This document shows, one piece after another, positions 1,732 to 32,658 of a stretch of DNA of 64,000 nucleotides; within the stretch, counting starts at the first letter, position 1; each line of letters begins with the position of its first letter. The notes below the pieces were generated by a model. That model made no database searches, was not told the origin of the DNA, and was given only the letters and a program-made list of their open reading frames with translations. The translations under genes and the position numbers were made by a program. Origin of the DNA: Pelagibacterales bacterium SAG-MED15 (lineage in GTDB: Bacteria > Pseudomonadota > Alphaproteobacteria > Pelagibacterales > Pelagibacteraceae); NCBI GenBank assembly GCA_014654065.1, contig JACWDM010000002.1:62001-126000 (forward strand), given 5' to 3'.

Positions 1732-2531
1732 TATGCAGCGCTCTCATATTTGTTATCTTGGTTTAAAAATTCCTCTGTAAAACTAAAATATGATTTACTA
1801 CCTGGGCACGTTTTATCGTATATTAAAACTGGAATTCCATGAGATGGTGCTTCGGACAATCTTACATTTCTTGGAACGATGGTTTGATAAACTTGATCCT
1901 TAAAATAATCTCTTGCCTCTTTTTCTACTTGGATAGAAAGTTTATTTCTCTTATCATACATGGTTAATAATATACCTCTTATGGAAAGTTCAGGATTAAG
2001 ATTGCTTTTTATTCGATCAATAGTTTTTATAAGCTGAGTTATGCCCTCTAAAGCAAAGAATTCAGTTTGCAGAGGCACAATTAATGAATTTGAGGCCACT
2101 AATGCCATTACGGTTAGGAGACTTAATGAAGGAGGGCAATCAATTAGTATATGGGAGTAGTTACCTCTAGAATCATTTAAATAAGCGGTTAATTTATCCT
2201 TAAGAATGAAGGCTCTTCTAGTGTCTCCTGCTGTTTCAACCTCTAAACCTGAAAGATCTACATTTGAAGTAATAATTTCAAGATTTTCAAAATCTGTTTT
2301 CTTTATCACCTTTGATATATTGTCAGTTCCATTAAGCACACTATAAATTGTACCTTCTGAACTCTCGAGGTTTGATAAACCTAATCCTGTTGTTGCGTTT
2401 CCTTGTGGATCTAGATCTATTACTAAAACTTTTTTATTTTGAAGTGAAAGCCCTGCAGCTAAATTAATTACAGTAGTTGTTTTACCAACCCCTCCCTTTT
2501 GATTTATTATTGATATTATTTTTGTTTTCAT
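1731..2531 (-). CDS. parA: Chromosome partitioning ATPase ParA/Soj
   Basis: Deviant Walker A KGGVGKTT, DLDPQGNATTGLG. Confidence 0.97.
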   Translation of the reverse strand: MKTKIISIINQKGGVGKTTTVINLAAGLSLQNKKVLVIDLDPQGNATTGLGLSNLESSEGTIYSVLNGTDNISKVIKKTDFENLEIITSNVDLSGLEVETAGDTRRAFILKDKLTAYLNDSRGNYSHILIDCPPSLSLLTVMALVASNSLIVPLQTEFFALEGITQLIKTIDRIKSNLNPELSIRGILLTMYDKRNKLSIQVEKEARDYFKDQVYQTIVPRNVRLSEAPSHGIPVLIYDKTCPGSKSYFSFTEEFLNQDNKYESAA

Positions 2532-3166
2532 TTTTTTTTTTTAAATTTATAAATTTTAATTATTTTAGAGTCTGAATTTGTTAAGCTTTGTTTTACTTTA
2601 TATTCAAAATCCCATCTTTTTAAACATTTCGATAAAGTATCCATTCCACTCTTGCCTAAAAATAAAATAATACTTGAAAAATTTTTAAAGTTTGAGTGTG
2701 CTAATTCCAAAACTGTTGGTAATGGTTTGAAAGCTCTTGCAACAAGTATGTCAGTGCTTAAATTTTCTTCATCAAAAATATTTTTTTGAAAAACTTCTGC
2801 GTTCAGATTAAATTTTTTTATCACCTCTTTTAAGAATTGGCTTTTCCGAAAGCTTTTTTCATATAAATTAAATTTCATAGAATTTTTGTTATGCTTCATG
2901 ATAATTGCAAGCACTATGCCTGGAAGACCTGACCCTGAGCCAACATCAGTACAAATTTTCTCATTTTTATTAATAAATTCAAATATTTGCGCACTGTCTA
3001 TTATGTGTCTTTCTTTTGATTTTTCTTCTGAAGATTGGCTAATTAAGTTAATTTTTTTATTTCTCTCTAGTATTAGAGATCTAAATTCCTCAAAAACATA
3101 AAATGTTTCACGTGAAACATTCAGAGGTTCTAATACCGAATATTGTAATATGTTCGAATCTATCAA
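2528..3166 (-). CDS. rsmG: 16S rRNA (guanine527-N7)-methyltransferase RsmG
   Basis: NLISQSS...[22 protein letters not shown]; between mnmG and parA. Confidence 0.95.
3104..3119. promoter_or_regulatory. parS centromere site
   Basis: Exact 16-bp palindrome TGTTTCACGTGAAACA within the 5' part of rsmG. Confidence 0.95.
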
Positions 3167-9350: not shown

Positions 9351-10352
9351 TTAATTATCTTTTATAAATTCTATTAAATATTTTACCATATCAGGATTTG
9401 TTTCGGGTAGGACACCATGGCCTAAATTAAAAATATAAGGATGATCTTTGAAAATATCCTTATACTTTTTAACATTTTTTTTCAAATTATCTTTATTCCC
9501 AAGAAGTAGTTTTGGGTCCAGGCCTCCTTGTACAGGTATAGTTATATCTTTTAAGATTTGCAACGGATCTACATTAAAATCTATATTTATTGCATCTGGA
9601 TTTACTCTGCTCACATATTTTTTGTAATTTTTAATATTCCTAGGGAAACAAATTATGGGAATATTAAGTTTTTTTGTAAATTCTACTATTTCTTTAGTTG
9701 GTTGATAAACATATTTTTCTAAATCTTTTTCTTCTAATAATCCTGCCCAGCTATCAAAAATTTGAATTACAGTAGCACCACTTTTAACTTGATTTATTAT
9801 ATGAATTTTTAAAAATTCTTTGAGTAAATCTAATATTTCATCAAGATTATTTGCTTTTGAAAAAAAGTTTTTTTTAATATTTTTTTTTGGTGATTTTTTA
9901 TTAATTATATAGACTAATAAAGTCCACGGAGCTCCTATAAATCCAATAAGATCTTTATTTTTTAGAATATTATTATTTGAAGTTATTTTAATGGATTCAT
10001 AAATTGGGTTTAATTTATTTTCAAAATCATTTTTATTATTTCTAAATATTAGATCTTTACTAAAATCACCCAATTCAGGACCATAGTCTTTTGTAAATTT
10101 TAATTTTTGACCCAGACCATACGGAACCATTAAGATATCTGAAAAAATTATTGCTGCATCAAAATTAAATCTTTTAATAGGTTGTAATGTTATTTTTGGT
10201 ACAAGTTTTTTATCTAAACATAAATTAACAAAATTTTTATTCTTTTGTCTTATTTTTCTAAATTCTGGTAAATATCTACCTGCTTGTCTCATCAACCAAA
10301 TTGGTTTAATTGACCTATCTTTATTAAAGATACATTTTTGTAAGGGACTCAT
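9351..10352 (-). CDS. hemE: Uroporphyrinogen decarboxylase
   Basis: PIWLMRQAGRYLPEFR, IGAPWTLL, NLGHGVLPETNPD. Confidence 0.98.
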   Translation of the reverse strand: MSPLQKCIFNKDRSIKPIWLMRQAGRYLPEFRKIRQKNKNFVNLCLDKKLVPKITLQPIKRFNFDAAIIFSDILMVPYGLGQKLKFTKDYGPELGDFSKDLIFRNNKNDFENKLNPIYESIKITSNNNILKNKDLIGFIGAPWTLLVYIINKKSPKKNIKKNFFSKANNLDEILDLLKEFLKIHIINQVKSGATVIQIFDSWAGLLEEKDLEKYVYQPTKEIVEFTKKLNIPIICFPRNIKNYKKYVSRVNPDAINIDFNVDPLQILKDITIPVQGGLDPKLLLGNKDNLKKNVKKYKDIFKDHPYIFNLGHGVLPETNPDMVKYLIEFIKDN

Positions 10353-10633
10353 TAAATAAAAATATATATGTTTAGTATTAGTTTATTATCTTGTTAATAA
10401 CTCTAATTTAATTTTATCAACTTTTTTTACAATAACTATCCACATTTTTATGGTTAAAAAACTCTTAATTGTATTAAAAAAAGTAACTTTAACACTTATA
10501 TCGAAAAATTAAGGAATACTTATAAACATGTTTAAATATGTTAATTAAAATGATTTTATACACCTGTAAAACAATAATATTCAAATTTGACTTAAATCAG
10601 ATTATTATTAAATACTTATAAACATACTTATTC
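10353..10633. other. Putative chromosomal replication origin (oriC)
   Basis: AT-rich gap between divergent hemE and ppsR; CTATCCACA at 10436-10444, TTATACACC at 10556-10564, TTATAAACA at 10520-10528 and 10616-10624; hemE-flanked origin known in Caulobacter and Rickettsia. Confidence 0.75.
10515..10625 (+). repeat. 15-bp direct repeat AATACTTATAAACAT (10515-10529 and 10611-10625)
   Basis: Two identical copies 96 bp apart, each containing the DnaA-box-like TTATAAACA. Confidence 0.9.
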
Positions 10634-11458
10634 ATGAATAATTCATATCAAATATATTTAATATCAGACTCAACTGGAGAGACATTAGATAGAATTTTTA
10701 TAGCCCTTAAAGCCCAATTTAAAAATTTTTCTTATGAAACTAATCATTTTTCTTTTACTAGAACAGAAAATCAAGTTCTAAAAATACTAACAAATATAAA
10801 AAATAAAAAAAAAATAATTATACTTTATACAATAGTTGATAATAATCTTTCAAAATTTTTAGATCAAGAAGCAAAGAAGTTAAAAGTTGCATGTTTTAAT
10901 GCATTAGGTGATTTAATATTAAGTTTTTCAAAACAGCTAGATCAAGAAGCTTCATTTAAACCAAGCGGACAACATGCCTTGAATGAAGAATATTATGAGA
11001 GAATAGAAGCTATTCAATTCACCATGAATCATGACGATGGGAATTTATCAAATGATATAAATAAATCTGATATAATTTTATTAGGAGTTAGTAGAACAAG
11101 CAAAACGCCTACATCAATTTATCTTGCAAACAAAGGATTTAAGGTTTCGAATATTCCTCTTGTAAATGAAAACTCAATACCAAATAGTCTAAAAAATAAT
11201 AAAAATAAAATATGTATTATAGGATTAACCGCAGAACCAAACAGATTAGTTGAAGTAAGGAAGAATAGGATGAGTTCTCTTAAAGATAACACAAGTACAA
11301 ACTATGTAAATTTTGAAAAAATTTCACAAGAAGTTGAAGAAGCAAAAAAAACTTTTCAAAAGTACAAATGGCCAGTAATTGATGTCAGTAGAAAATCAGT
11401 TGAAGAAACAGCTGCATCAGTTATAAAAATTTTTGAAATAAGTAAAAAAAATGTCTGA
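10634..11458 (+). CDS. Pyruvate, phosphate dikinase regulatory protein (DUF299/PPSR family)
   Basis: YLISDSTGETLDRI, GVSRTSKTPTSIYLANKG. Confidence 0.93.
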   Translation: MNNSYQIYLISDSTGETLDRIFIALKAQFKNFSYETNHFSFTRTENQVLKILTNIKNKKKIIILYTIVDNNLSKFLDQEAKKLKVACFNALGDLILSFSKQLDQEASFKPSGQHALNEEYYERIEAIQFTMNHDDGNLSNDINKSDIILLGVSRTSKTPTSIYLANKGFKVSNIPLVNENSIPNSLKNNKNKICIIGLTAEPNRLVEVRKNRMSSLKDNTSTNYVNFEKISQEVEEAKKTFQKYKWPVIDVSRKSVEETAASVIKIFEISKKNV

Positions 11459-32583: not shown

Positions 32584-32658
32584 GCGGGCGTAGCTCAGTG
32601 GTAGAGCGTCTCGTTGCCAACGAGAAGGTCGTGGGTTCAAGTCCCATTGCCCGCTCCA
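32584..32658 (+). tRNA. tRNA-Gly(GCC), CCA encoded
   Basis: GCGGGCG/TGCCCGC acceptor, CTCGTTGCCAACGAG anticodon arm, GGTTCAAGTCC T-loop, TCCA end. Confidence 0.97.

Follow-up and report, generated by a model that had tools for sequence, protein, structure and literature searches.

The hemE-PPSR intergenic region and its neighborhood

The window analyzed here is a 64,000-nt stretch of a contig from Pelagibacterales bacterium SAG-MED15, a marine bacterium of the SAR11 group. At 10353-10633 it contains a 281-nt gap bounded by the start codon of hemE, which is read from the minus strand and ends at 10352, and by the start codon of a PPSR/DUF299 gene at 10634. Counted from open reading frames, no internal non-coding gap of the window is longer; two longer stretches run off the window ends and were excluded from the ranking. 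Its AT content is 83.6%, above the genome average, and for low stability it ranks at the 99.85th percentile of its own contig, among the least stable sequences. The initial annotation, which had described the gap as very AT-rich and among the longest non-coding stretches, with parAB and parS about 7 kb away, was accurate on these points. A search of a phage collection gave no match.

The boundary features and the nearby partition site are as follows:

3104-3119, plus strand: parS, exact TGTTTCACGTGAAACA, inside the rsmG/gidB reading frame (2528-3166); the only site in the window with up to 3 mismatches
9351-10352, minus strand: hemE, uroporphyrinogen decarboxylase, left boundary gene (PF01208, E = 2e-83)
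10353-10633, no strand: putative oriC, the whole hemE-PPSR intergenic region; length conserved in relatives, with aligned boxes and a skew switch in complete relatives
10353-10372, no strand: AT-rich hemE-side segment TAAATAAAAATATATATGTT, among the least stable 40-bp segments of the gap; relatives have a similar TATATA tract there
10634-11458, plus strand: PPSR/DUF299 (COG1806 type) kinase-pyrophosphorylase, right boundary gene (PF03618, E = 3.5e-89)

Beyond hemE lie hemH, hemJ and rho, and beyond PPSR lie maf, aroE, coaE and dnaQ-like reading frames. Pfam matches support hemE, hemH, the hemJ family, PPSR and maf, and the remaining neighbor names are taken from translations. The exact parS is 7.2 kb from the gap and is adjoined by parA and parB (883-2531). 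It falls within the start of rsmG/gidB, where it encodes an NVSRETF stretch. The only tRNA in the window, tRNA-Gly(gcc) at 32584-32658, is preceded by a 160-nt AT-rich gap.

The dnaA gene of the source genome is located elsewhere, at about 9 kb on contig C12, which is 63 kb from the gap; the distance is 63-72 kb in the relatives measured. The encoded protein has all expected domains and an intact, canonical RDHTTV helix-turn-helix motif.

DnaA boxes in the gap

Individual DnaA box matches by themselves carry little weight. The window contains 19 one-mismatch boxes where 21 are expected, so that the motifs cited one by one in the initial annotation are weak evidence even though all are present: CTATCCACA at 10436, TTATACACC at 10556, and TTATAAACA at 10520 and 10616. 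The cluster as a whole is not attributable to chance, since the three TTATNNACA and five TTWTNNACA sites in the gap are counts that no other 281-nt stretch equals, in either category, across 204 kb of the 207-kb contig. Additional boxes that had been overlooked occur at 10392 (minus strand), 10414 (plus strand) and 10539 (minus strand), as does a run of DnaA-trios at 10373-10384 (see below). No perfect TTATCCACA is found in the hemE-PPSR gap of the window. The boxes, with their conservation among the aligned gaps of relatives, are:

10392-10400, minus strand: DnaA box 1 TTATTAACA, trio-proximal; same alignment column in 66/129 gaps, mostly TTATTCACA
10414-10422, plus strand: DnaA box 2 TTATCAACT, degenerate here, TTATAAACA or TTATTAACA in relatives; columns 80-82 (10412-10414) in 70/129 gaps
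10436-10444, plus strand: DnaA box 3 CTATCCACA, one mismatch to TTATCCACA; same column in 52/129 gaps
10520-10528, plus strand: DnaA box 4 TTATAAACA; same column in 24/129 gaps
10539-10547, minus strand: DnaA box 5 TAATTAACA, degenerate here, TTATTAACA in relatives; same column in 79/129 gaps
10556-10564, plus strand: box-like TTATACACC, two mismatches to TTATCCACA; no conserved column
10616-10624, plus strand: DnaA box 6 TTATAAACA, abutting the PPSR start codon; same column in 81/129 gaps, mostly TTATTAACA

Conservation across relatives

Related loci were gathered by a PPSR search of 148 genomes of the family and of a named collection (Pelagibacteraceae single-cell genomes and MAGs). In the 137 Pelagibacteraceae loci that have both hemE and PPSR, the intervening gap is 258-291 nt long, and the same hemE-gap-PPSR order occurs in 27 of 28 other alphaproteobacterial loci examined. 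The 129 distinct gap sequences were aligned, and motif enrichment was measured against dinucleotide shuffles; because the sequences come from related species, the motif counts should not be read as independent events.

In the 129 gaps, DnaA boxes lie at fixed positions and outnumber those in shuffles about 9-fold, with 407 occurrences of TTATNNACA compared to 45. Most are TTATNAACA (301 vs 21) and fewer are TTATNCACA (81 vs 4). Variants with G or T at position 6 are at or near background (TTATNGACA, 6 vs 2.4; TTATNTACA, 19 vs 18). Because enrichment is restricted to C or A at this position, it is specific and is not due to AT richness. No genome-wide avoidance of TTATNAACA was seen (274 observed, 284 expected). 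The initial annotation had proposed that its reading would fail if the DnaA-like boxes were not conserved in relatives, but their positions are kept across the distinct gaps and they are strongly enriched. The gap appears to carry a set of DnaA-binding and DNA-opening motifs that is conserved across more than 100 related species.

Other candidate protein sites were also counted in the 129 gaps. Sites of the CtrA type (TTAAN7TTAA) number 51 compared to 37 +/- 6 in shuffles, with a higher count, 75, for the N6 spacing control. IHF consensus matches number 21 compared to 10.8 +/- 3.8. GANTC occurs only 4 times in the 35.7 kb of origin gaps, compared to 324 times in 204 kb of contig C12, a difference for which composition is part of the cause. 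Depletion of GANTC was dropped as a feature of the gap, since other palindromes are likewise under-represented against shuffles.

A DnaA-trio element beside the first box

The hemE side of the gap contains a second kind of conserved motif:

10373-10384, plus strand: DnaA-trio run TAG-TAT-TAG-TTT (3'-GAT-5'-type trios read away from the box), with strand-specific enrichment in relatives

This run of 5'-TAG/TAT-3' triplets lies about 40 nt from the hemE start, and its order of trios, spacer and box is that of the basal unwinding system (BUS), an origin-unwinding module. The DnaA-trio motif is defined as 3'-GAT-5' on the strand read away from the box, and the published BUS rule calls for at least three DnaA-trios on the correct strand, 0-16 nt from a DnaA box with no more than 2 mismatches (PMC8287927). 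In the window, TAG-TAT-TAG is followed by the box at 10392, which lies 10 nt past the third trio (7 past TTT). The box itself, TTATTAACA, has 2 mismatches, the maximum that the rule allows.

Runs of at least four TA[AGT] triplets are present in 45 of the 129 gaps, compared to 3.5 in shuffles and to 1/129 on the opposite strand. In 60 sequences, the hemE side of the first box is a tract of T-A-(G/T) with three-base periodicity, in which T occupies positions -7, -10, -13, -16 and -19 in 85-100% of cases. Some members of sister family f108 have a TAG-TAG-TAG tract ((TAG)3-4) followed by a GC-containing spacer and TGTG, an arrangement that matches the textbook BUS layout. A strict scan of other alphaproteobacteria for TAN trios with a canonical box found nothing under that narrow rule. 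The neighboring AT-rich segment at 10353-10372 is likely to be part of the DNA unwinding element.

GC skew in relatives places the origin near the gap

Skew at third codon positions (G-C) was separated into contributions from gene strand and from replication, using 20-kb stretches of complete relatives. Pooled over six such genomes, the skew switches between -10 and +18 kb of the PPSR start (95% interval, a drop of 1.92 units); an earlier fit to four genomes gave -16 to +10 kb. The exact position of the gap is 2.6 units under the best point of the pooled grid, which is 10 kb away; gene-level noise is large and limits the resolution of skew. The contig of the window itself is too short and noisy to yield a usable signal, and its best breakpoint is elsewhere and of the wrong sign. 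GC skew had been proposed as a check with the initial annotation and, when it is run on relatives, the strand-corrected replication component changes sign next to the gap locus.

Many bacteria have oriC next to dnaA, and an origin at or near dnaA, 63 kb away, would leave the hemE-PPSR gap as only an AT-rich divergent promoter region. The skew fit for one complete relative (G024) does not single out the gap and does not separate it from dnaA. However, the dnaA position is 20 log-likelihood units below the best point in the pooled six genomes. In the four genomes of the window's own genus alone, it trails the best point by 7 units and the gap by about 3. The box cluster of the gap has no equal near dnaA, and a role as promoter only leaves unexplained the conserved box columns specific for C or A, the trio run and the retention of the gap after loss of hemE or PPSR (see below). 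We therefore regard an origin at dnaA as very unlikely. On skew in relatives, the origin is no more than about 20 kb from the gap, and dnaA is rejected.

The gap is retained when a neighboring gene is lost

In two groups of relatives the gap has a different neighbor on one side. Genus g7 has no native hemE next to PPSR: the gap is flanked by rho and PPSR instead, and it keeps both the trio-spacer-box start and the final box. The only hemE found in this genus (G007, G015 and G027; L164-L166) is a distant copy, 31-33% identical and located far away, which suggests gene displacement. In family f108 (loci L318-L326; G283 and others), the gap is 271-281 nt long, with hemE on one side and maf on the other. 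A search for PPSR found none in 10 of 10 f108 genomes, and maf is directly across the origin from hemE. Persistence of the gap sequence when either neighbor goes argues against its being a mere promoter of one of them.

A related possibility is that the boxes form a DnaA-regulated promoter or a DnaA-titration site of hemE or PPSR and do not mark an initiation site. These genes are divergent, so their promoters must sit in the gap, and the last box lies right next to the PPSR start codon. Yet the same architecture persists when either gene is replaced as neighbor, DnaA-trios are an unwinding element, and the skew switches at the gap. A purely regulatory role for the boxes is extremely improbable in light of these observations.

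A probable compact origin with unusual boxes

Taken as a chromosomal origin, as the initial annotation had proposed, the gap is supported by the skew of relatives, by box conservation and by a Caulobacter-like gene order. We put the probability that it functions as the oriC of this Pelagibacter-like chromosome at about 95%. Its position, box array, trio element and associated skew are computational observations. Models from Bacillus, Helicobacter and Caulobacter suggest that DnaA would bind, melt and initiate replication here. DnaA-ATP would bind the boxes arrayed between hemE and PPSR, most of them weak and of the TTATNAACA type, and a DnaA filament would grow from the hemE-proximal box (10392-10400) onto one strand of the DnaA-trios (10373-10384). 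The filament on the trios would then melt the AT-rich hemE-side segment, where helicase would be loaded and from which forks would depart bidirectionally. Replicated origins may be segregated via the nearby parS and ParAB.

The SAR11 boxes are probably mostly weak. Since the helix-turn-helix of DnaA is canonical, the shift of the boxes to A at position 6 is not matched by any obvious change in the protein. One tentative interpretation, which we consider somewhat less probable than its converse, is that the Pelagibacteraceae origin is a compact element (about 280 nt) made almost wholly of low-affinity boxes with A for C at position 6 (TTATNAACA), despite the canonical DNA-reading helix of DnaA. 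Initiation would then depend on a filament that grows cooperatively from weak boxes onto DnaA-trios, and it may be tuned to slow growth under a reduced set of cell-cycle controls. Only two features of the system are mildly surprising: its weak-box composition and its compact layout of conserved length.

Few cells in the ocean are as abundant as SAR11 bacteria, and metagenomic estimates of growth rate by peak-to-trough methods depend on the position at which replication starts. At least one tool assigns contigs that bear dnaA to the origin (PMC7852909). With dnaA 63 kb from the gap, placement of the origin by dnaA would be off by this distance in this genus. The aligned gaps also provide over 100 naturally occurring versions of a minimal BUS-type origin whose boxes are unusual and probably weak, a set that makes the rules for DnaA boxes and DnaA-trios testable in vitro.

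Comparison with known origins

No SAR11 oriC next to hemE was found in the open-access papers searched, although databases such as DoriC may already list one. A Pelagibacter methylation study used an origin derived from skew, with no sequence or gene position in the portions of the article consulted (PMC9516812), and the text of the BUS study does not name Pelagibacter (PMC8287927).

The experimentally known origin of Caulobacter is located between hemE and COG1806/DUF299 (PMC1914354). Caulobacter crescentus Cori and the Rickettsia prowazekii origin share with the gap described here the same boundary genes, an AT-rich intergenic region, several DnaA boxes and a dnaA gene located elsewhere (PMC1914354). 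The SAR11 gap is shorter, at 258-291 nt compared to 330-1068 nt in the other alphaproteobacterial loci examined. Unlike these hemE-COG1806 origins, its boxes are mostly TTATNAACA, and CtrA sites are without clear support, given that the N6 control exceeds the N7 count. A published survey reports that a ctrA ortholog is absent from Pelagibacter (PMC2877005). Despite that report, 37 of the 41 genomes searched encode GcrA-family proteins, the source genome (G000:C32:36621-37061) among them.

In Wolbachia, Ehrlichia and Anaplasma, the origin (hemE-COG1253) has been retained despite the loss or relocation of one ancestral boundary gene (PMC1914354). In contrast, the typical gene pair is intact in the window, and comparable changes occur only in its relatives, genus g7 and family f108.

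The likeness to the BUS of Bacillus subtilis, a module shared by many bacteria, includes a box, a short spacer, trios with a conserved middle A, a 3'-GAT-5' preference and the expected strand, and the GC bases between box and trios are clear in the sister family. Two differences are that the trio-proximal SAR11 box departs from TTATCCACA (TTATTCACA or TTATTAACA) and that the window itself has only TAG-TAT-TAG-TTT in phase, with a 7-nt spacer. We conclude with high confidence that the gap is the ancestral alphaproteobacterial hemE-COG1806 origin equipped with a BUS module, and not a new kind of system.
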